DNA from: an uncultured Porphyromonas sp. | GTDB lineage: Bacteria > Bacteroidota > Bacteroidia > Bacteroidales > Porphyromonadaceae | Direction: 5' to 3' | DNA: 14,683 nt | NCBI GenBank assembly: GCA_947253195.1 | Contig: CAMXXM010000009.1 | Location: 1-14,683, forward strand | Shown: in pieces, positions 1-8,092 of the stretch | Numbering within the stretch: position 1 is the stretch's first letter | How the letters are laid out: every line of letters starts with the position of its first letter | Made by a program: the position numbers and the translations under genes | The notes under the pieces: generated by a model | The model's database searches: none | What the model was told of the DNA's origin: nothing | The model's input: the letters and a program-made list of their open reading frames with translations, nothing else

Positions 1-52
1 TACGAGCTTAGAATAACGGTCTCGTGGGCTCGGAGATGTGTATAAGAGACAG
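1..52. other. Illumina Nextera/P7 adapter remnant (artefact)
   Basis: Bases 19-52 match the 34-base Nextera read-2 adapter exactly, from memory, ending in the 19-base Tn5 mosaic end AGATGTGTATAAGAGACAG at 34-52. Bases 1-8 (TACGAGCT) differ by one base from the end of the P7 oligo (TACGAGAT), which leaves 9-18 as a probable 10-base i7 index. This is library DNA, not genome. Real sequence starts at 53 and the contig end is artificial. Confidence 0.97.
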
Positions 53-1017
53 CGGGTGTAGACCTGCTCCTCGGTGAGGTCGGTGCGTGCGAGGATGGAC
101 TTAATCGCCTGCTCCTCATCCGACCACGTGCGGACGCTCCGTCCCTCGGCAAGCATCATCCCCGGCCACTCGTGCCCCTCGGAGACAGCCCGCTCGGTGG
201 CATAGTCCTGCAGCTCCTTGAGCCACTTGATGGCATCGTCGGCGTAGCTTAGGAAGTACGCCTGCTCCTCCTCCGAGAGGGCATTGGCGGGGCGGTGCAG
301 ATCGGCGAGGGTCGGTGTGCCGTCCGTATGCACACGGCAGATAGCCTTGGCACGGCACCAGCGGCACCAGTCGCCACGGACAGCGATGCCATCGCCTTTG
401 TAGGCATACTTAGCCTGCTCCTGCACGTTGCGAGCCAGCCACTCCTCGAGCTCGGTGCGAGTGAGGGCCCACTCCTTGACCTTATCCCCCTCGATGCGGG
501 GCTGGACGATAGTCATGATGACATAGCTTACCTTGGTGTGATCCGGGATGACCTCGGCATCGTTGAGCGCACCCCAGGCGTAGATGGCGAGCTGGTAGTT
601 ATCCTCCGCCTGCACCTCGACCCCCATGCCGTATTTGTAGTCATAGATGTAGAGGTCGGTGGTGCCGTCACGCTTGACGTCCGTGACGATGGCATCACAG
701 GTGCCGTAGCCCTCGGGGACCAGCCCGCTGAGGTCCAGCTTGCGCTCCGTGTAGATAGTCCCCACGGGGTTGGCGTGGACGGCATCCTTGTAGAGGTATG
801 CCCCGTCGACCATGTCGAGGTCGTAGGCTGAGAGGTCAGCGTCTGCGATGCGGTCGCTCGCCACCTGCTCGGCAAGGGCGTGCGCCTTAGTCCCCTCAAG
901 AGCGGCCTCGCTGGCCTGCTCCTCGGGCATAAGCTCCTCCATACGTGCGGACGGGGTGCAGTGGCACCAGCGGGCCGCCTTGGATGGTGATAGTAGTGCG
1001 TGTGTAGTAGGTGTCAT
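53..1017 (-). CDS. DUF2800 phage nuclease, Cas4/AddB-like PD-(D/E)XK fold (3' truncated)
   Basis: This frame stays open from its ATG at 1017 to the adapter, giving about 321 residues, so the C-terminal end is missing. The N-terminus has the LSPSKAxRWxxC pattern common in phage DUF2800 proteins. Around residues 106-130 lie GTCDAI and DYKYG, which supply the Asp and the D-x-K pair of a PD-(D/E)XK active site, followed by a QLAIYAWGAL helix. Cys218, Cys221 and Cys227, with Cys18 or Cys20 at the other end, resemble the four-cysteine iron-sulphur staple of Cas4 and AddB; that is inference. The protein probably acts on DNA in phage replication or recombination. In many phages DUF2800 is followed by DUF2815 and a DNA polymerase, which would lie left of the cut. 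Its ATG overlaps the stop of the preceding gene by 4 bases (ATGA), suggesting coupled translation. Confidence 0.88.
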
Positions 1018-1394
1018 AGCTTATCGAGCTGTGTGTAGAGTGCGTCCCGCTTGTCCTCCGGGACCATCTGAGGGCGCACGGAGCCGTCCGTGCTGTATCC
1101 GGCTATCAGTGCGGCTATCGCCTTGCGCTCAAGCTCGCCACCTGCCTGCCACTTGGCATTGAGCTTGTTTTTGAGCTCCGTGAGGGTGTGCGCGGGAGCC
1201 GTGGCTGTCTCTACCTTGGCGACCTCTTTAGCTGTCTTTTTGGGCTCCTTGGCTGGCTCCTCGAGGGCTGCGGTCTCCACCTTGCCCTCCTCCGCTATGG
1301 TATTGGCTACTACCTGAGCACTGGCACGGGATGCCAAGTAGGTGATGGCATCAGCCAGCATCTGGTCAGTTGTCTCAATTGTTATCTGTCTCAT
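1014..1394 (-). CDS. Hypothetical phage protein with Ala/Glu/Lys-rich linker (126 aa)
   Basis: I do not recognise a named family. The protein has two predicted ordered parts. Residues 1-35 look helical (MLADAITYLASRAS). Residues 36-70 are a low-complexity Ala/Glu/Lys/Pro/Thr linker. Residues 70-126 form a small C-terminal domain (LTELKNKLNAKWQAGG, then a hydrophobic helix, ending in PEDKRDALYTQLDKL). Similar short helical tails occur in phage accessory proteins, but I cannot assign a function. The gene sits directly before the DUF2800 nuclease with an ATGA overlap, so it probably belongs to the replication or recombination module. Its start lies inside the end of the membrane-protein gene before it (20-base overlap), and ATG is the first plausible start. 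Confidence 0.8.
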   Translation of the reverse strand: MRQITIETTDQMLADAITYLASRASAQVVANTIAEEGKVETAALEEPAKEPKKTAKEVAKVETATAPAHTLTELKNKLNAKWQAGGELERKAIAALIAGYSTDGSVRPQMVPEDKRDALYTQLDKL

Positions 1395-1596
1395 TGTTAT
1401 ACTCCGTTACTCCGTAGATGATTAGTTGCAAGCCGGCATACATTGCCGCCGTGGACATTATCAGTGTCGTGACACTGAGGTGGCAGACGATCTGCACCGC
1501 AGCGATCAGTAGGATAAGCACTCCGAGGAGGCTGTAGCCGAGGGTGGACATAAGCAGTACCGCAGCCGTCACAGCCTTATCCAGTCGCCGTCCCAT
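1375..1596 (-). CDS. Small two-helix membrane protein (73 aa)
   Basis: The frame can be opened upstream to 1785, but that extension runs over the HTH gene in another frame and has shadow-like composition, so I place the start at the internal ATG at 1596 (MGRRLDKAV). From there it encodes 73 residues with two hydrophobic segments, about residues 9-37 and 41-64, and a polar tail ending in YNNETDNN. The positively charged N-terminus suggests that both ends face the cytoplasm. It overlaps the HTH gene by 28 bases and the next gene by 20. Small two-helix proteins in phage early operons can be holins, exclusion proteins or toxins; nothing here decides among them. No lysis genes are next to it, which argues mildly against a holin. 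Confidence 0.6.
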   Translation of the reverse strand: MGRRLDKAVTAAVLLMSTLGYSLLGVLILLIAAVQIVCHLSVTTLIMSTAAMYAGLQLIIYGVTEYNNETDNN

Positions 1597-1775
1597 ACTC
1601 GCAGTATCTCCTCCCCGCTGATGTACTTGCGAAGCGTCTTGCGCTGTATGGAGGCTCTCAGGCTCCCCTCCTCGAGCCATCTGTAGACGGTCATACGAGA
1701 CACGCCGAGGAGCCTTGCCGTCTCGCTGATGGTGTACCGCCCCCTTGCGGCGGCACGTGGTCGTAGTGGTGTCAT
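1569..1775 (-). CDS. Excisionase/MerR-like HTH DNA-binding protein (68 aa)
   Basis: Residues 13-45 read as a winged helix-turn-helix of the HTH_17/excisionase type: YTISETARLLGVSRMTVYRW followed by a short wing. The C-terminal ISGEEILRVW is typical of this family, whose members end in an I-x-x-EE-I/L segment. The likely role is DNA binding as a recombination directionality factor (Xis) or as a small early regulator. It lies in the middle of the leftward operon, 6 bases after the preceding gene, so it would be made only when that operon is switched on, which fits a role in excision. No integrase is next to it, so the Xis role is inference. The residues before 13 are Arg/Ala-rich and disordered. 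Confidence 0.8.
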   Translation of the reverse strand: MTPLRPRAAARGRYTISETARLLGVSRMTVYRWLEEGSLRASIQRKTLRKYISGEEILRVWDGDWIRL

Positions 1776-1781
1776 AGTGTC

Positions 1782-1982
1782 TCATCTCGCTCCCAGCTTA
1801 TTAATAGTTATCGTCATGGTCTTCTGGTCGATGTTGACCTCGACCCTTTGCCCCCTCCTCATCGCCAGCTTATAGGCGTGGCTCTGAGCATTAAGCATCG
1901 TCTTAGTATCTGGTACTTTGTACGTCGCACTCCCCGGGCAGGGGATCTTGTCGTAATCGTCGGCAGTCAGTCTCTGTACCAT
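1782..1982 (-). CDS. Hypothetical phage protein (66 aa)
   Basis: This short protein has no family I recognise. Residues 35-50 (AQSHAYKLAMRRGQRV) look like an amphipathic basic helix, followed by two probable beta strands (VEVNIDQKTMTITINKL), an alpha-beta arrangement common in small phage proteins. A single Cys in PCPGS precedes the helix. The frame is tightly packed, 5 bases after the 178-residue gene and 6 bases before the HTH gene, and its composition is protein-like. That supports it as a real gene of the operon with unknown function. Confidence 0.7.
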   Translation of the reverse strand: MVQRLTADDYDKIPCPGSATYKVPDTKTMLNAQSHAYKLAMRRGQRVEVNIDQKTMTITINKLGAR

Positions 1983-1987
1983 ATTCT

Positions 1988-2524
1988 TTAATCATATCGT
2001 TGTATGTCTATCGTCATCATCTCCTTTGCCTCATCCGTCAGTCGACGGGCTGCATACTTTTGGAGTATCAAGCAGTAGAGGCCATCATCATCCGTGCATA
2101 CGTACCAGTAGCAGTAGCGGTGAGCGTCAGGATCAAGCGTGTAGATTCCAAATTGCTCAAGGCTCTCTCCTGAGAGCCCTTTCGCGCAGTCGTACGTCTC
2201 CCACTTCAGGAGGAACTCCCGCCCTACTTTTGTCCGTCGGTCTACGGTGAGTAGCCCGTTATCCGTCTCCTTGACGCCTTTTTTCAGGGTCTCAGGTATA
2301 TACTCTGGTCTTATGCCCCGCGCCGAGATCATACAGGTATATCCGACGCACCAGTATTGCTCAAACTCGACCGGCTTAACGCCGTAGTAGTCTGTTAAGA
2401 TCTCTATAGCCTCCTCCTTATTCCTGAGGTTCTGGTCATATAGCTCTTTGAGCACCTGCTCAAAGGCTGTCCCTTTCTTGGCCGTTAATATCATAGCTCT
2501 CTGTATCGTTATTCTCTTCCTCAT
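1988..2524 (-). CDS. Hypothetical phage protein (178 aa)
   Basis: I do not recognise the family. I use the ATG at 2524 (MRKRITIQ) rather than the TTG one codon earlier; a GGAG lies about 10 bases upstream. Residues 15-45 look helical and charged (FEQVLKELYDQNLRNKEEAIEIL). The rest is mixed alpha/beta and rich in aromatic residues and cysteine, with WCVGYTC near 58 and YCYWYVC near 138. The paired Cys clusters might bind a metal, but the spacing matches no standard motif I know. The protein is the largest unknown of the early operon and lies between a zinc-finger-like gene and a run of small genes. No membrane segment or signal peptide is visible. Confidence 0.78.
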   Translation of the reverse strand: MRKRITIQRAMILTAKKGTAFEQVLKELYDQNLRNKEEAIEILTDYYGVKPVEFEQYWCVGYTCMISARGIRPEYIPETLKKGVKETDNGLLTVDRRTKVGREFLLKWETYDCAKGLSGESLEQFGIYTLDPDAHRYCYWYVCTDDDGLYCLILQKYAARRLTDEAKEMMTIDIQRYD

Positions 2525-2554
2525 CAAGGAGCTCCAGCACGTGCAAAAGCCCCG

Positions 2555-2722
2555 TTATTCTGTACATTTATTCTCGTGCAGTATGTGGATGATTGTCGCT
2601 CCATCGCTGTATCTAATGGCGCAGTTCTCGTTTTTCTCCCGGTGCATCTGCAGGTGTTGCTCAAGCTCATCCTCTTCAAATACCTTACTGCAGTTAAGGC
2701 AGCAGCATTCATTCTCTTTCAT
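2555..2722 (-). CDS. Small zinc-finger-like protein (55 aa, near-C2H2)
   Basis: This 55-residue frame starts at the ATG at 2722, inside the last codons of the preceding gene (14-base overlap). Residues 8-27 read CLNCSKVFEEDELEQHLQMH: C-x2-C-x3-F-x4-L-x2-H-x3-H, which is the classical C2H2 zinc-finger layout with one residue fewer between Phe and Leu. Extra cysteines lie at 6, 7 and 34 and near the end (Cys53). I prefer it to the overlapping 62-residue frame at 2524-2712, which starts inside it and lacks any motif. The likely role is a small DNA-, RNA- or protein-binding regulator, given the family; its function in this phage is unknown. Confidence 0.7.
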   Translation of the reverse strand: MKENECCCLNCSKVFEEDELEQHLQMHREKNENCAIRYSDGATIIHILHENKCTE

Positions 2723-2963
2723 CGTGTAATTGTCTCTTCTTAAGTGTTTCCTTTATGCTGTCCCGATGGGCTTTTTTCTCCCTGCTCTTCTTCCTCAAGT
2801 ACTGCTTGATGGCATACTCCGGGATCTCTTCCAAGACCTCTTCATATCCCTTCTGAGGGAGGTTCCATTGGTGTAGGATTTGAGCACAGATGCAACCTGC
2901 TTCCCTGTCGTCAACGATGTTTTCAGCAAGCTCATAAGGCTCTATTGTCGTATATATATCCAT
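2709..2963 (-). CDS. Hypothetical charged phage protein (84 aa)
   Basis: I recognise no family. The N-terminal part (residues 7-40) contains YELAENIVDDREAGCICAQIL, probably helical, with two Cys separated by one residue. The second half is strongly charged and helical (YLRKKSREKKAHRDSIKETLKKRQ), likely to bind nucleic acid or to be disordered. Its ATG shares one base with the stop of the KilA-N gene (TGATG), and its end overlaps the zinc-finger gene by 14 bases. Both ties make it the second gene of the leftward operon. No membrane segment is visible. Confidence 0.78.
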   Translation of the reverse strand: MDIYTTIEPYELAENIVDDREAGCICAQILHQWNLPQKGYEEVLEEIPEYAIKQYLRKKSREKKAHRDSIKETLKKRQLHDERE

Positions 2964-3778
2964 CAGTGGTGCAGGTATCGTCTTATAAAGTATTGCTGTC
3001 CCTTGGGGGTTACCTTGGTCGTGGTGCAGACACGGGAGGTGCCGTCGGGGTTATTGATGGCGGTCTTTTTGAGCTCAAAGAGCCCAAGCTCCATCGCCAT
3101 CTGTGTCGGCTGGTTGTACCTCTCGCCCTTGCAGGACTGCAGGTAGCCTTGCTCCCGTAGCTCGGCAAATAGGCGGTTTTGCCCTGTGTCGTGTCCGTTT
3201 TGCTTTAAGATTTTGGCGAGCTCGCCCACGAGGATCGACCGCTTGGAGGCGGTCACCGCATCGGCAAAGAGCACCTTTGGTGCGTCCTCCTCGGCTCTGT
3301 CCCGCAGGAATTGCGCCTCCGCCTGTGCCTCCAGCTCGCTCTCTCGGAGCCGTGCCGTCTCCCGCTTAGCCTCCTCGAGACGGCCCTGCAGGATCTCCAT
3401 AGCCTTGGCGATCGTCTGGTCGTCCGTGGCTGTCGTGGTCACGCCATCCCTCAGCAGCTCCTTGATCCGGTCATTGCACCAGAGGCGGAAGTCCACGGAT
3501 AGCCACTGAGCAAAGTCAAGTGCAACGGTCTCGGTCATCCACGTACCGCCTCCATTTTCTGGGCTCCCTGCCTTTGTCGTAACTGCTTGATACTCTGAAT
3601 TACCAGATTTTCTGGTAATTGCCCTAAGTAGCTCAATTGTAGAGGGTAACGACAGATAGTCGTTTGGGCGCTTTTTGAATGCCCTTGCCATCTGCGTGGC
3701 ATTGACCATCACCTCATCTCCTCGGAGGAAAGAGACCGGTGCACTCTGATAAGAGTAGGTGTAAGTAATGTTACTCAT
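2963..3778 (-). CDS. KilA-N / KilAC phage antirepressor-like protein
   Basis: The protein has 271 residues with two known phage domains. Residues 1-110 form a KilA-N domain (GDEVMVNATQMARAF near 20-34, then TETVALDFAQWLSVDFRLWCNDRI near 82-105), a DNA-binding domain of phage and large-virus regulators. Residues 122-165 are a charged Glu/Ala/Arg-rich coiled coil, probably for oligomerisation. Residues 166-271 match the KilAC/ANT antirepressor C-terminal domain (VGELAKILKQNG, then FAELREQGYL, ending KGQQYFIRRY). Proteins of this type act as phage antirepressors or early regulators. It is the first gene of the leftward operon, facing the CI repressor, which fits a role in the lysis-lysogeny decision. 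The exact action (binding CI or binding DNA) cannot be read from the sequence. Its leader from the promoter at 3920-3951 is about 135 bases. Confidence 0.92.
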   Translation of the reverse strand: MSNITYTYSYQSAPVSFLRGDEVMVNATQMARAFKKRPNDYLSLPSTIELLRAITRKSGNSEYQAVTTKAGSPENGGGTWMTETVALDFAQWLSVDFRLWCNDRIKELLRDGVTTTATDDQTIAKAMEILQGRLEEAKRETARLRESELEAQAEAQFLRDRAEEDAPKVLFADAVTASKRSILVGELAKILKQNGHDTGQNRLFAELREQGYLQSCKGERYNQPTQMAMELGLFELKKTAINNPDGTSRVCTTTKVTPKGQQYFIRRYLHH

Positions 3779-3796
3779 AACGTTGTGTTAAAATAT

Positions 3797-3827
3797 TTTG
3801 CAGAATGAGCGAGATTACCTACCTTTA
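3797..3827 (+). promoter_or_regulatory. Weak candidate promoter for the repressor
   Basis: TTTG (3797-3800), 19 bases, then TACCTTTA (3820-3827) matches the Bacteroidota promoter form with one mismatch. It would give a leader of about 150 bases for the repressor and would face the leftward promoter, so the two transcripts would overlap by about 80 bases. I see no better candidate nearer to the repressor start. Confidence 0.3.
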
Positions 3828-3854
3828 CCCGTGAGTTTTAGGATTGAATGGGTG

Positions 3855-3869
3855 GCGAGATTTTCTCGC
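3855..3869. other. Small hairpin in the leader of the leftward operon
   Basis: GCGAGA-TTT-TCTCGC is a perfect 6-bp inverted repeat with a 3-base loop, between the leftward promoter and the KilA-N start. It could be a leader hairpin on the phage early transcript or a protein site. There is no T-run at its leftward end, so it is not an obvious terminator. The half-sequence GCGAGATT also occurs at 3809-3816. Confidence 0.4.
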
Positions 3870-3914
3870 TGCTCTGCTTTGCTATCTATGCCGTCCGTCT
3901 AATCGGTCGGTCAG

Positions 3915-3933
3915 TGTTACAAAGGTAGTAACA
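3915..3933. promoter_or_regulatory. Candidate CI operator over the -7 box
   Basis: TGTTAC-N7-GTAACA is a perfect inverted repeat with 6-bp arms. Its 7-base centre is essentially the -7 box of the leftward promoter (3920-3927), so a dimer bound here would block that promoter. Half-sites starting TGTTA also occur at 3786 and 3972. The assignment to the CI repressor is inference from position. Confidence 0.55.
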
Positions 3934-3951
3934 GTATGGCAACTTTCCAAA
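3920..3951 (-). promoter_or_regulatory. Promoter of the leftward phage operon
   Basis: On the minus strand, TTTG (3951-3948), 20 bases, then TACCTTTG (3927-3920) fits the Bacteroidota vegetative promoter form TTTG-N19/20-TAnnTTTG with no mismatch. Transcription should start near 3912 and run into the KilA-N gene. Confidence 0.75.
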
Positions 3952-3959
3952 CGATTTGG
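3947..3959. promoter_or_regulatory. Candidate second operator over the -33 box
   Basis: CCAAA-CGA-TTTGG is an inverted repeat with 5-bp arms that covers the -33 element of the leftward promoter and lies about 25 bp before the repressor ATG. Its arms differ from the TGTTAC site, so it may be a site for another protein or chance. Confidence 0.35.
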
Positions 3960-3983
3960 CAATATTTTAAGTGTTAAAGTCCT

Positions 3984-4649
3984 ATGAGTGCAAGTATAGA
4001 TTTGATACTCAATGAGATAAAAAGCGCACTTGGTTATGACACGGATGACCAATTGGCAACTGCGATCGGTATTACCAAGGCAAATCTATCTCAGTGGAGG
4101 CGACGCAATAGCATGGACATAAACAAGGTGGCAACCGCCTTACCTGCTGTCTCTGCTAACTACCTGCTACGTGGAGAGGGTCCGGTGCTCGGCGACAGTA
4201 GCATTGACCCAGTCTCTACGGCATCGGATGTGGTACGATACTATCCTAACATACCGGCAACAGCTGGCGATGTCGAGAATATGCCCGAGCCCTCGTACGA
4301 GGACCAGCAGCCAACACTCTACGTTATCCCGGGGCTTGGCGGTTGCGATGCTATGCCAGCGACTGGTAACAGTATGTATCCAACCATAACAGCTGGTGAT
4401 ATGGTTGTGCACAAGGTGTGGCAGGATGGGAGCTACATCCGTAATGGAGAGATATATGTAATCCTCACCAATGACGGCCAGCGTATGATTAAGCGACTTA
4501 CGTACGTCTCCACGGATGAGGATGGAGACAAGCATTACATATGCCGATCAGACAACCCAGACCAAGACAAGTATGCACCTTTTGAGGTGCTCGGGAGCTC
4601 CATACGTCAGCTCTCTATTGTCAAGGCAATACTTAGCAGATTAGAGTAA
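3984..4649 (+). CDS. CI-type phage repressor, HTH plus S24 self-cleaving peptidase
   Basis: The protein has 221 residues. Residues 4-66 form a CI-family helix-turn-helix domain (DDQLATAIGITKANLSQWRRR). A linker follows, and residues 110-218 are a LexA/S24 peptidase domain with the nucleophile Ser130 in GNSMYP and the general base Lys170 in MIKRL. An Ala94-Gly95 pair (PATAGD) lies 36 residues before Ser130, close to the cleavage-site spacing in LexA and lambda CI, so RecA-stimulated self-cleavage after DNA damage is likely. It would keep the leftward lytic operon off by binding the operators at 3915-3933 and nearby. The next gene starts 6 bases after its stop, so the lipoprotein is almost certainly on the same transcript. 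The gene looks more AT-rich than the chromosomal genes to the right. Confidence 0.93.
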   Translation: MSASIDLILNEIKSALGYDTDDQLATAIGITKANLSQWRRRNSMDINKVATALPAVSANYLLRGEGPVLGDSSIDPVSTASDVVRYYPNIPATAGDVENMPEPSYEDQQPTLYVIPGLGGCDAMPATGNSMYPTITAGDMVVHKVWQDGSYIRNGEIYVILTNDGQRMIKRLTYVSTDEDGDKHYICRSDNPDQDKYAPFEVLGSSIRQLSIVKAILSRLE

Positions 4650-4655
4650 TACATT

Positions 4656-5366
4656 ATGATTAAGAGACTACTTACAGCCACTACAACACTCCTGCTCGCA
4701 TGCAGTTGCAACTCGTCCTCTGAGTTAAAAAGTTGGAGAGACGAGAACAGACTGTCGGATGATGTCTATAGGGTCGAGGAGGTATCTGTTGTTAACAATC
4801 CGTTTGGAAATGACCACAAACACACATCTCGGACGGTCTACTCTCTTGACGAGCTCGGTCGTACAGAGTATGTCACGACTAATAGTCAGCGGACGGATTA
4901 CTATTATGCCGGCAAGAGCCTGCTCCTTGACAGCTGTGTCTATTCAGACGGCAGTAAAATGATATTTAAGTATAGCGGGGACAAGTGCATTGAGCTAATC
5001 ACCGTAGACCGCAATGGTGATGTCAGCTCTGACGTGCATGTTACTTCTCACACCCGCAAAGGGCTACCGATAGATAGCTCTACAGATGGTTGGACTACGC
5101 ACATGGAGTACGACAATGACGGACGTATGGTCTCTATGAGCCTATCTCATAACGGAGAAGTATACTCCAAGATGATTTACGAGTATAACTCGCACGGAGA
5201 CAAGATAAGCGAGAGGGAGCTTGTCGATCCTGACCGCTCTACCCCATATGACTACGACTACGACTACGAGGGCGATTATTGGGTAACACAGCGAAAATAC
5301 AAGGTCTACGATAGCGGAGACAGAGATCTGCGACTACTGACCACCCGCAAGATTTTCCGCAAGTAA
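4656..5366 (+). CDS. Lysogeny-module lipoprotein with YD-like repeats
   Basis: The protein has 236 residues. A short signal peptide (basic MIKR, then a hydrophobic stretch) ends in a lipobox, Leu13-Leu14-Ala15-Cys16, so it should be lipid-anchored after Cys16. No clear Bacteroidota surface-export signal (acidic run right after the Cys) is visible, so it may face the periplasm. The mature part is beta-rich with several short repeats of the Y-x-x-D-x-x-G-R type (near 62, 151 and 176), loosely like YD/RHS repeats, and an acidic Tyr/Asp run near 198-208 encoded by three copies of GACTAC. It lies 6 bases behind the repressor and is the last phage gene before the att site, so it is likely to be made in the lysogen. 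Superinfection exclusion, as for the Ltp lipoprotein of Streptococcus phage TP-J34, or another surface change is plausible but unproven. I recognise no specific family. Confidence 0.82.
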   Translation: MIKRLLTATTTLLLACSCNSSSELKSWRDENRLSDDVYRVEEVSVVNNPFGNDHKHTSRTVYSLDELGRTEYVTTNSQRTDYYYAGKSLLLDSCVYSDGSKMIFKYSGDKCIELITVDRNGDVSSDVHVTSHTRKGLPIDSSTDGWTTHMEYDNDGRMVSMSLSHNGEVYSKMIYEYNSHGDKISERELVDPDRSTPYDYDYDYEGDYWVTQRKYKVYDSGDRDLRLLTTRKIFRK

Positions 5367-5443
5367 CCCCGCAATTATCCCGCGACGACATACCACACAA
5401 TCACGTAAGTAGACCATATACAGAGGCTTACAATTGTCCTAAT

Positions 5444-5490
5444 CCTGACTCATAATCAGGGAGTCCACGGTTCAAGCCCGTGTGGGACCA
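5444..5490 (+). pseudogene. tRNA(CAT) 3' fragment, prophage attachment site
   Basis: The fragment contains a perfect anticodon arm (CCTGA 5444-5448, loop CTCATAA, TCAGG 5456-5460; anticodon CAT 5451-5453), a 5-base variable region, a perfect T arm (CACGG-TTCAAGC-CCGTG, 5466-5482), the acceptor 3' strand TGGGACC and discriminator A5490. CCA is not encoded. The matching 5' acceptor strand GGTCCCA and a D arm are absent upstream, so this is not a working tRNA. It fits the att copy left when a phage integrates in a tRNA gene and restores the intact gene at its other end. Met, initiator Met and Ile2 (CAT) cannot be told apart from this half. Confidence 0.88.
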
Positions 5491-5508
5491 CTGGATCGAC
5501 TTCGATCA

Positions 5509-5552
5509 GCCGGAGAGTGCGGAAGAAGCTTCTGCACTCTCCGGCTTTTTTT
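5509..5552 (+). terminator. Rho-independent terminator behind the tRNA remnant
   Basis: A perfect 12-bp stem (GCCGGAGAGTGC at 5509-5520 with its complement at 5534-5545) extends inward through GGAAGAAGCTTCT and is followed by seven T (5546-5552). It is probably the host tRNA's own terminator, left beside the att remnant, and would now also end the repressor-lipoprotein transcript of the prophage. Confidence 0.92.
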
Positions 5553-5563
5553 GGGGGCCTTCT

Positions 5564-5645
5564 CTAATACCGATATTAGTTGAGACTATTACCGGTATTA
5601 GTCGACACTATTATCGGTATTAGTCGTCACTATTACCGGTAATAG
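5564..5645. repeat. Array of four 16-bp palindromes at 22-bp spacing
   Basis: Sites at 5564-5579, 5586-5601, 5608-5623 and 5630-5645 follow CTAWTAYCGRTAWTAG; the last, CTATTACCGGTAATAG, is a perfect palindrome. Centre-to-centre distance is exactly 22 bp each time, about two helical turns, so proteins on all four would face the same side. The 6-base spacers begin with T and end with A, and each junction reads TAGT-N4-ACTA, a second set of small palindromes. The array lies on the host side of the att site, between the tRNA terminator and the rnr promoter box. Confidence 0.9.
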
Positions 5646-5748: not shown

Positions 5749-5756
5749 TAACTTTG
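5749..5756 (+). promoter_or_regulatory. rnr: -7 promoter box ahead of rnr
   Basis: TAACTTTG matches the Bacteroidota -7 form TAnnTTTG exactly and lies 30 bases before the rnr ATG, giving a short leader. I see no good -33 TTTG at the usual distance, so the promoter is either weak or needs an activator. Confidence 0.5.
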
Positions 5757-5785: not shown

Positions 5786-8092
5786 ATGGGTAAGAAATTT
5801 AAGTCAAGAAAAGAGAAGAGTAGTCAGGAATTTAGGGAGTCGTCCTACAAGCCAAGTAAAAAAGAGCGGGGTTTCTCTCGCTACAGGAGGGATGTCATCG
5901 ACTACTTCACCAGCCATGCCAATGTCTGTGTATCTGTCGACGAGATCTGTGAGACGGTCGGCGCTGATGATGGATCGGAGAAGCAGATGGTCAGAGAGGT
6001 GCTTGATCAGCTGATGCGCGAGAAGCTCATCCAGGCAGGTGCCGCCAGTGACGAGTACATCTACAGGACAAAGAATACGAAGCTGATAGGATCCTTCCGC
6101 CGCAAGGCCGGCAAGGGACACAATTTCTTCTTCCCCGAGGATGGGAGCGACCCGATCCGCGTGGCGGAGCGAAACTCTGCTCACGCCTTTGATGGCGACA
6201 AGGTAATGGTGCAGCTGCTGGCTCTGCGTCCTGGTCAGGAGATTGAGGGCGAGGTGATCGAGATACTGGAGCGGGTTGTGACTAATTTCGTCGGTGTTAT
6301 GTCGATCAGCCACGGCTACAACTTCCTCATCACGGACAGCCGTAAGCTGGACAATGACATCCTGATCCCGGATCGCAACCTCAATGGCGCTCAGGATGGC
6401 GAGAAGGTACTGGTCCATGTACTGGAGTGGCCGGACCATGCCAAGAACCCTGTAGGTGAGGTGATCTCCCGCCTCGGAAAGCCGGGGAGCAACGACACCG
6501 AGATGCATGCGATACTGGCAGAGTATGGTCTGCCCTACTCCTATCCGGAAAATCTGGAGCAGTACGCCAATGACCTCGATGAGCAGATGGCATACGACCC
6601 GAAGTATAAGAGAGAGGACTACCGTGACCGACTCACCTTTACCTGCGACCCGGAGTCGGCGAAGGACTACGATGATGCGCTCTCCTACAAGGATCTCGGC
6701 GACGGCACCTACGAGGTGGGTGTCCACATCGCTGACGTCACCTCTTACGTCACCCCCGGGGACCCGATCGATGAGGAGGCCTCTCAGCGTGCGACCAGCG
6801 TCTACTTGGTCGACCGCACCGTGTCGATGCTGCCGGAGCGGCTCTGCAACGACCTCTGCTCCCTCCGCGCAGGTGTGGACAGACCCGCATTTTCCTGCAT
6901 CTTCCGGATGAATCCCCTCGGCACTGTGCTCGACTACCATGTCGCCCGCACGGTGATCCACAGTGACTACCGATTTAAGTACGAGGAGGTGCTGGAGGTG
7001 ATCAATGGTCAGCCCGGCGTGACTCCCGAGGTGGAGGAGGCGATCCACAGGCTGGATGAAATGGCCAAGGCACTGAGGAAGATGCGCTTCGAGCACGGCT
7101 CGATCGAGTTTGAGCAGGAGGAGCTGGTGTTTGACCTCGATGAGAAAGGCAAGCCGATCTCCGTCCATGTGAAGGAGAATACCGATGCCAATCGCCTGAT
7201 CGAGGACTATATGCTGCTTGCCAATCGCACCGTCGCCAAGCACATCGCTAAGCTGGCCAAGGAGCGGGACGAGAAGATCCCACCCTTTATCTATCGTGTG
7301 CACGACAGACCGGATGAGGAGCGGCTACAGAACTTTGCCGAGTACGTAGGGCGGCTGGGATACAAGTTTGTCTACACGGGAGATGCCCGGTCCATCTCCG
7401 ACAATCTCAATAAGCTCCTCGAGGAAATCAAGGGGAAGCCGGAGGAGAATGTGATCCAGATTTTGGCGATCCGCACGATGTCCAAGGCTGTGTACCAGAC
7501 AGAGAATATTGGTCACTTCGGGCTCGGATTTGAGTTTTACACCCACTTCACCAGCCCTATCCGTCGCCACCCTGATATGATGGTTCACCGCCTCCTGTGG
7601 CAGTATATGACCACCGGGAAGGGTGCCGACAGGAGCGACCTCGATGCCATCTGTGAGCACGACTCTGAGATGGAGAAGACGGCTGCCGATGCGGAGCGCT
7701 CCTCTGTTAAGTACAAGCAGATTGAGTATATGCAAGAGCGACTGGGGCAGGAGTTTGAGGGCATGGTCAGTGGTGTCAAGGACTTCGGGATCTTTGTGGA
7801 GATCAAGGAGAATGGTTGCGAGGGACTGGTGCCGATCCGTGACCTCAGCGATGACTTCTACGAGTACGACGACAAGACTATGGCGCTCGTGGGGATCAAT
7901 ACCCGCCGTCGCTACGCCCTCGGCGATATGATCAAGATCCGTGTCGCACGGGCCGATCTCCAGAAGAGGTTCCTCGACTTTGAGCTGGCGGATAAGCCGG
8001 CCGGTCAGCCCCAGGAAGATCATCGCAGAGGAGGCTACGACTCACACCGCGGTGGTGGTCGTGGCGGTAACCGATCAGGTCGCAGACACTGA
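5786..8092 (+). CDS. rnr: Ribonuclease R (3'-5' exoribonuclease)
   Basis: The 768-residue protein is full length. In order it has an N-terminal helix-turn-helix region (about 30-95), two cold-shock-like OB domains (about 100-240), an RNB catalytic domain (about 275-610), an S1 RNA-binding domain (about 651-730) and a basic Arg/Gly-rich tail (745-768). The catalytic metal ligands are in CDPESAKDYDDA as Asp288, Asp294, Asp296 and Asp297, with the same spacing as Asp272, 278, 280 and 281 of E. coli RNase R. TSPIRRHPDMMVHRLL near 590-605 is the conserved RNA-end motif. The enzyme degrades structured RNA one nucleotide at a time in the cytoplasm, in RNA quality control and cold or stress response. 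It is the first gene of a five-gene operon and is followed after 18 bases by ruvB. The start at 5786 begins the usual Lys-rich N-terminus. Confidence 0.97.
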   Translation: MGKKFKSRKEKSSQEFRESSYKPSKKERGFSRYRRDVIDYFTSHANVCVSVDEICETVGADDGSEKQMVREVLDQLMREKLIQAGAASDEYIYRTKNTKLIGSFRRKAGKGHNFFFPEDGSDPIRVAERNSAHAFDGDKVMVQLLALRPGQEIEGEVIEILERVVTNFVGVMSISHGYNFLITDSRKLDNDILIPDRNLNGAQDGEKVLVHVLEWPDHAKNPVGEVISRLGKPGSNDTEMHAILAEYGLPYSYPENLEQYANDLDEQMAYDPKYKREDYRDRLTFTCDPESAKDYDDALSYKDLGDGTYEVGVHIADVTSYVTPGDPIDEEASQRATSVYLVDRTVSMLPERLCNDLCSLRAGVDRPAFSCIFRMNPLGTVLDYHVARTVIHSDYRFKYEEVLEVINGQPGVTPEVEEAIHRLDEMAKALRKMRFEHGSIEFEQEELVFDLDEKGKPISVHVKENTDANRLIEDYMLLANRTVAKHIAKLAKERDEKIPPFIYRVHDRPDEERLQNFAEYVGRLGYKFVYTGDARSISDNLNKLLEEIKGKPEENVIQILAIRTMSKAVYQTENIGHFGLGFEFYTHFTSPIRRHPDMMVHRLLWQYMTTGKGADRSDLDAICEHDSEMEKTAADAERSSVKYKQIEYMQERLGQEFEGMVSGVKDFGIFVEIKENGCEGLVPIRDLSDDFYEYDDKTMALVGINTRRRYALGDMIKIRVARADLQKRFLDFELADKPAGQPQEDHRRGGYDSHRGGGRGGNRSGRRH

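Follow-up and report, generated by a model that had tools for sequence, protein, structure and literature searches.

What might four phased palindromes be doing between the remains of a tRNA gene and the gene of a ribonuclease? The question is raised by an intergenic array at positions 5564–5645 of a 14,683-nucleotide stretch of DNA from an uncultured Porphyromonas sp., hereafter called the window. The array consists of four 16-bp dyads at exact steps of 22 bp, located at 5564–5579 (CTAATACCGATATTAG), 5586–5601 (CTATTACCGGTATTAG), 5608–5623 (CTATTATCGGTATTAG) and 5630–5645 (CTATTACCGGTAATAG), and all four match CTAWTAYCGRTAWTAG with 0 mismatches. They are separated by the 6-bp spacers TTGAGA (5580–5585), TCGACA (5602–5607) and TCGTCA (5624–5629); neither dyads nor spacers are assigned to a strand. 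Tandem Repeats Finder reported a period of 22, 3.7 copies and a score of 115. The second set of dyads claimed by the original prediction, TAGT-N4-ACTA, recurs at each of the three junctions, and the array itself is real and positioned as described. Upstream, it is preceded by a separate terminator-like hairpin on the forward strand (5508–5546, 3' of the tRNA fragment), which is conserved in both close relatives and was the sole result of a terminator scan of the window, the array not being called. Downstream lies a forward-strand ORF (5786–8092), which we take to be rnr (ribonuclease R) from recognition of its protein, with 98% identity to Porphyromonas sp. HMSC065F10 and 95–96% to P. bennonis. 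The motif TAACTTTG at 5749–5756, presumably the −7 box of rnr, is found about 100 bp past the end of the array. No Rfam match was obtained anywhere in the window.

The array had further been described as the neighbour of a prophage attachment site. Positions 1–5470 of the window encode phage-type genes (KilA-N/ANT, a CI/S24-type repressor and HTH_17) and end at a 3' fragment of tRNA-Met(CAT). ARAGORN detected no whole tRNA in the window, where this fragment alone is present; a whole tRNA-Met(CAT) stands at the matching place in P. bennonis, and the pair of observations fits an integration site. Among 25 loci retrieved with the Rnr protein, those of HMSC065F10 (L002, 98%) and P. bennonis DSM 23058 (L001, 95%) were the nearest, and the window and P. 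bennonis share 90.3% DNA identity across 9,083 bases. At the matching place, an array of three units is present in both relatives, so that a random or absent array in close relatives, the outcome named beforehand as speaking against the prediction, was not observed. Since P. bennonis has the array together with a whole tRNA and no prophage, the array is independent of the prophage, and a link between the two is unsupported. The spacers TTGAGA and TCGTCA are common to the window and P. bennonis arrays. In both three-unit relatives a 22-bp alignment gap falls at the fourth unit, and the alignment with P. bennonis suggests that the array gains or loses complete units.

The genome-wide figures given here refer to the genomes of these relatives, P. 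bennonis (G001) and HMSC065F10 (G002). Scanning for the motif and its 22-bp tandem form, as originally proposed, revealed a large family. Allowing up to two mismatches, we counted 493 copies of the motif in G001 and 345 in G002, compared with 3 and 4 matches of reversed-pattern controls. Exact matches number 291 and 225, respectively, with one in G012 and none in the other nine of the 12 genomes of the genus. The tandem form, allowing one mismatch, was detected in 3/38 genomes of the family (337 copies in G001, 188 in G002 and one in G012), and controls for the first two gave 0. In P. bennonis (1,360,202 bases from the 24 largest contigs of a genome of ~2.0 Mb, one contig trimmed by 829 bases and two by fewer than 150), we identified 115 arrays, comprising 66 with four units, 35 with three, 2 with two and 12 with one; three or four units are thus found in 101/115. 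Among 471 distances of at most 200 bp between core copies, 251 measure 22 bp, 157 measure 44 bp and 61 measure 66 bp, the remaining two being 42 and 64 bp. This phasing (469/471) fits what had been expected of a cooperative dimeric protein, and the contrary pattern of scattered, unspaced single copies is confined to 12/115 places.

Based on crude ORF calls, 97/115 of these arrays overlap no ORF by more than 10 bp. Their distribution over tandem, divergent and convergent gene pairs (53/25/18 of 96, versus 182/84/48 of 314) reveals no clear orientation preference, in which they are unlike promoter or terminator elements. The adjoining genes are many and unrelated, mostly housekeeping genes or spurious ORFs. 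Among the three options initially offered for the array, the repeat family is borne out in two close relatives and the nucleoid site has become the leading inference, whereas an operator of rnr is unsupported, as arrays lie beside many unrelated genes. Other repeats are dispersed in the same P. bennonis genome: 9-bp tandem repeats of the GTCGGACAA/GTCCGACCC type occur at C9:37674, C10:42209, C14:3889, C17:5775 and C22:10336, some of them inside predicted ORFs, and spurious ORFs with common stretches (PLGCRTDCL, CDTLAG) on contigs C8, C11, C12, C15, C17 and C22 point to another dispersed repeat.

The arrays are also spaced along the chromosome with considerable regularity. In P. bennonis, the 92 gaps between arrays have a mean of 10.6 kb, a median of 9.6 kb and a coefficient of variation (CV) of 0.42, and three are shorter than 5 kb. 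Random intergenic placement, simulated under three definitions of intergenic sites with 2000 shuffles each, gave a mean CV of 0.92–0.98 (lowest 0.67) and 34–37 gaps below 5 kb. For full arrays of at least three units (n = 101), 0/78 gaps fall below 5 kb, compared with 27–29 under the null (lowest 16). Among the longest array-free stretches of P. bennonis are the contig of a Mu-like prophage, a stretch of lower GC content and others in which long intergenic gaps are few. Regularity is present more weakly in other genomes: with motif families pooled, and the four lowest-scoring seed-based array rows (two each from G005 and G007) left out, 3/51 gaps are shorter than 5 kb versus 11.5 ± 2.6 expected (combined Z −3.7, 7 stretches). 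Dispersal at regular intervals, as a nucleoid site should show, is accordingly seen in P. bennonis and in the other genomes combined; it is weak or absent in one G005 contig (G005a, CV 0.79), in G003 family A (0.81) and in G006 family A (0.64).

The sequences of the individual units suggest how they may be read. The 369 P. bennonis units hardly vary in their outer and central bases; the positions inside are free as to A/T and purine/pyrimidine. Identical half-sites are rarer than expected both within a unit (57/369 versus 81.5 ± 6.9) and across a junction (31/268 versus 64.2 ± 6.1), and the same holds for identical adjacent units (5/268 versus 12.7 ± 3.4). Spacers are diverse (148 distinct among 268), fully palindromic ones being in excess (23/268 versus 14.4 ± 3.7, mostly TGATCA), and the flanks of P. 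bennonis arrays pair no more than shuffled flanks. The rarity of identical half-sites looks as if recognition were maintained and perfect repeats shunned, which would be expected of a protein that binds double-stranded DNA. The excess of palindromic spacers speaks against this, as do two G005 arrays that by eye resemble long, covarying inverted repeats.

We investigated other species with a score blind to the motif, requiring three palindromic, mutually similar units at periods of 17–31 bp, in stretches of 11 genomes; its hits are overlapping windows rather than arrays, and a stricter first version missed most P. bennonis arrays. In G001, period 22 accounts for 45/46 hits on contig C1 and 34/35 on contig C2. 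The corresponding shares are 17/23 in G003, 21/27 in G004, 65/116 in G005, 31/32 in G006, 33/54 in G007 and 5/5 in G008; samples of 3–23 kb each gave 1/2 in G009, 0/0 in G010, 0/2 in G011 and 0/0 in G012. Arrays of 22-bp pitch thus occur in six further genomes of the genus (G003–G008), built from other motifs and often from several families per genome: ACAGAAT-type and AAGTCGTAAGACTT-type in G003, GGTAAACGTGTTTA in G004, TTATTCCTAGGAATAA, AGGGACT and others in G005, GAGTTGCAACTC and GCGGAATGCATTCCGC in G006, and a TTCCTATAGGAA-like motif in G007. The motif TTATTCC has 148 copies in G005 against 14 of a control, and a GGGACT family is common to G002, G005, G007 and G012. Seed-based array calls are weak in G007 (11 clusters at 22 bp versus 5–10 at control periods) and G004 (10 versus 7 at period 21); in G003 and G006 the controls were 0, except for 3 at period 23 in G003. 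Contig C1 of G004 holds an eight-unit 22-bp array of a different motif near position 144267.

Rnr identity to the window is only 45% in G004, 42–48% in G009 (two pieces) and 55–63% in the others. Over 30 surveyed rnr loci, an array was found upstream of the gene in 5/11 loci of the genus, with a 22-bp pitch in G001, G002, G006 and G012 and a 23-bp pitch in G005 (L184, ~3905); none was found beside rnr in G003, G004, G007, G008, G010 and G011. Among 19 rnr loci from other genera of the family, a single one (G032) showed 22-bp hits, on the opposite side of rnr, and in other lineages (23 loci, 319,788 bases) period 22 made up 1/43 motif-blind hits. The arrays are therefore likely limited to the genus. 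Conservation of array positions across species appeared strong from gene lists and was gone once intergenic length was controlled (8/31 versus 31/128 gene ends).

Arrays also coincide with changes in gene order. Between P. bennonis and HMSC065F10, 11/14 end sides of synteny blocks have a P. bennonis array no more than 360 bp away, and gaps are broken in 9/13 cases with an array versus 1/10 without (minimum length of the array-free gaps 100 bp; one-sided p 0.0065), an excess that shrinks for gaps of at least 200 bp (9/12 versus 1/4, p 0.12). For G003–G007 against P. bennonis, gene order across gaps of at least 200 bp is conserved in 1/14 cases with an array and 12/45 without; gap lengths differ between the two groups, and the direction is the same as for G002. 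Within 100 kb of HMSC065F10, four of the five CTA arrays have a P. bennonis array at the corresponding place on at least one side. A GGGACT-type 22-bp array lies at a synteny break on contig C41 of this strain (~86118–86241, L210–L211), in mid-gap between CTA arrays.

The pitch, the number of repeats, the mostly intergenic position and the spacing together argue for the role of a cooperative DNA-binding protein acting chromosome-wide. Our tentatively preferred explanation, held with somewhat less than even confidence, is that each array would be a docking station on double-stranded DNA, at which each 16-bp palindrome takes one dimer of a sequence-specific protein. As 22 bp correspond to two helical turns, three or four dimers would come to lie on one face of the DNA and could bind cooperatively. 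An intergenic station about every 10 kb would serve the whole chromosome rather than the gene next door, and such stations would most likely be anchors or boundaries of ~10-kb nucleoid loops or supercoiling domains. The motif differs from one species to another, and the protein would change with it; what is retained is the pitch, the number of units and the approximate spacing.

The 16-bp geometry made ParB/Noc proteins worth considering as binders. Their sites, parS and NBS, are 16-bp palindromes of two abutting 8-bp half-sites, and those of Noc are dispersed. The arrays are alike in both respects but differ in their 22-bp tandem arrangement, their species-specific motif and the presence of one ParB-type gene per genome. 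A dedicated paralogue was rejected: HTH_ParB gave one match in 36/38 family genomes and none in G009 and G032. In a comparison of three ParB sequences, the HTH stretch looked alike by eye in G001 and G012, which have different arrays, and a search of the 1.36 Mb of P. bennonis with the TCACGTGA core turned up no canonical parS. HU-HIG was considered since the sole non-CTA 22-bp array in this sequence (contig C21, ~19504–19608; L079, L112), on the Mu-like prophage contig, lies directly upstream of an HU-HIG gene; it was discarded, as HU-HIG occurs in 38/38 family genomes with 1–17 matches and does not single out the genus. TetR was rejected likewise (TetR_N in 37/38 genomes, 0–8 matches, with overlapping counts inside and outside the genus). 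The listed neighbours of the arrays included no recurrent candidate for an autoregulated DNA-binding gene. That the ParB, HU-HIG and TetR gene counts do not set the genus apart, and that no binder was found among them, speaks against the nucleoid reading. So does the change of motif between species, as nucleoid sites with housekeeping roles, parS among them, are as a rule conserved; further points against it are array positions that across species are conserved no more than intergenic length predicts, the weak regularity of spacing in some stretches, the excess of palindromic spacers and the inverted repeats of G005.

Motif turnover would also fit a rival reading, in which the arrays are marks, in species dialects, that allow a cell to tell its DNA from that of others, either in uptake and recombination or in defence against foreign DNA. 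At one mark per ~10 kb, most long fragments would bear a tag; several families coexist per genome, and spacing is regular. Viral contigs gave no exact tandem matches for two motifs, and the one Mu-like prophage contig examined, from P. bennonis, has no CTA array, two observations that also count for the docking-station reading. DNA uptake sequences offer a precedent, as they are likewise present in many copies, are called evenly spaced where their spacing is discussed (PMC1939737) and have dialects (PMC3630211), in the parts of these sources available. However, the former describes them as non-palindromic and, in H. influenzae, largely within ORFs, versus palindromic units clear of ORFs in 97/115 cases here; uptake sequences have no fixed tandem pitch, the 22-bp pitch is left unexplained, and overall we regard this reading as doubtful. 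An intergenic repeat of the MITE, BIME or REPIN kind, spread by mobility or recombination as whole arrays and avoiding insertion near an existing copy, is unlikely as well, yet some observations favour it: the G004 arrays and two GCGGAAT arrays of G006 are near-identical including their spacers, the GGGACT family spans four genomes, and synteny blocks end at arrays. Like REP/BIME and REPIN-RAYT elements, the arrays are palindromic, lie dispersed between genes and fall into several families within one genome (PMC3116915). As far as that source was available, REPINs differ in that compensatory changes preserve their hairpins and RAYT genes accompany them, whereas P. bennonis units seem to avoid perfect inverted repeats. 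The Y1/RAYT transposase was rejected as a candidate, since PF01797 (Y1_Tnp, E ≤ 0.001) is found in 7/38 family genomes and is absent from 8/12 of the genus, including the array-carrying G003, G004, G005, G007 and G008. The diversity of P. bennonis spacers, the absence of recognised terminal repeats at arrays and the smaller breakpoint excess with longer gaps also count against mobility.

Two more local roles have much less in their favour. An element working as a hairpin or terminator, either at the RNA level or as a cruciform, would account for the palindromic units and for those G005 arrays that by eye are whole inverted repeats, and 35/53 arrays between tandem genes are closer to the upstream stop codon. 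It is nevertheless very unlikely: in the window a separate terminator already precedes the array, which itself was not called in the scan for intrinsic terminators (GC-rich stem and T run at gene ends) and has no Rfam match. In P. bennonis, half-sites are identical less often than by chance, flanks show no pairing above shuffled ones, and arrays are in no clear excess between convergent genes. A local operator for rnr or the tRNA could explain why an array precedes rnr in both close relatives and, with unrelated motifs, in G006, G012 and G005. But arrays stand next to unrelated genes at 115 places in 1.36 Mb, and in six genomes of the genus none was found at rnr; this is the least probable of the readings and a scarcely credible one.

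We found no account of such a lattice in the open-access literature searched. The 22-nt repeats of P. gingivalis W83 reportedly stem from the 2003 genome paper of this strain. Tandem repeats of 41, 23 and 22 nt in W83 are mentioned in PMC4596501 as described earlier with no exact locations given, so that the lattice may partly have been glimpsed before. The same source describes BrickBuilt, with 23-nt direct repeats in 1 to 22.8 copies at 19 loci, a leader and tail and IS5-like ends, and matches restricted to P. gingivalis and P. gulae. The arrays share with these repeats the genus Porphyromonas, the intergenic position and tandem units of similar length. They differ from BrickBuilt, as far as it is described there, in consisting of 16-bp palindromes at a 22-bp pitch, mostly in 3–4 units, at 115 places in 1.36 Mb with regular spacing and with no such ends recognised.

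Taken at the same guarded level of confidence, selection in the genus Porphyromonas would act on the architecture and spacing of a chromosomal lattice in which three or four phased palindromes recur every 10 kb or so. The recognised sequence would be replaced from species to species, with several codes in some genomes, and the lattice would serve both to mark or fold the chromosome and as a favoured seam for its rearrangement. Even as a mere repeat family, the arrays are markers at synteny breakpoints. A scale of ~10 kb is often quoted for supercoiling domains. If the docking-station explanation is true, evenly spaced stations with a fixed helical pitch would constitute a built-in ruler for loops or domains, and the lattice would open the determinants of domain size to experiment. 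The turnover of the motif at 100 or more places would then represent an unusual genome-wide change of DNA-binding specificity.
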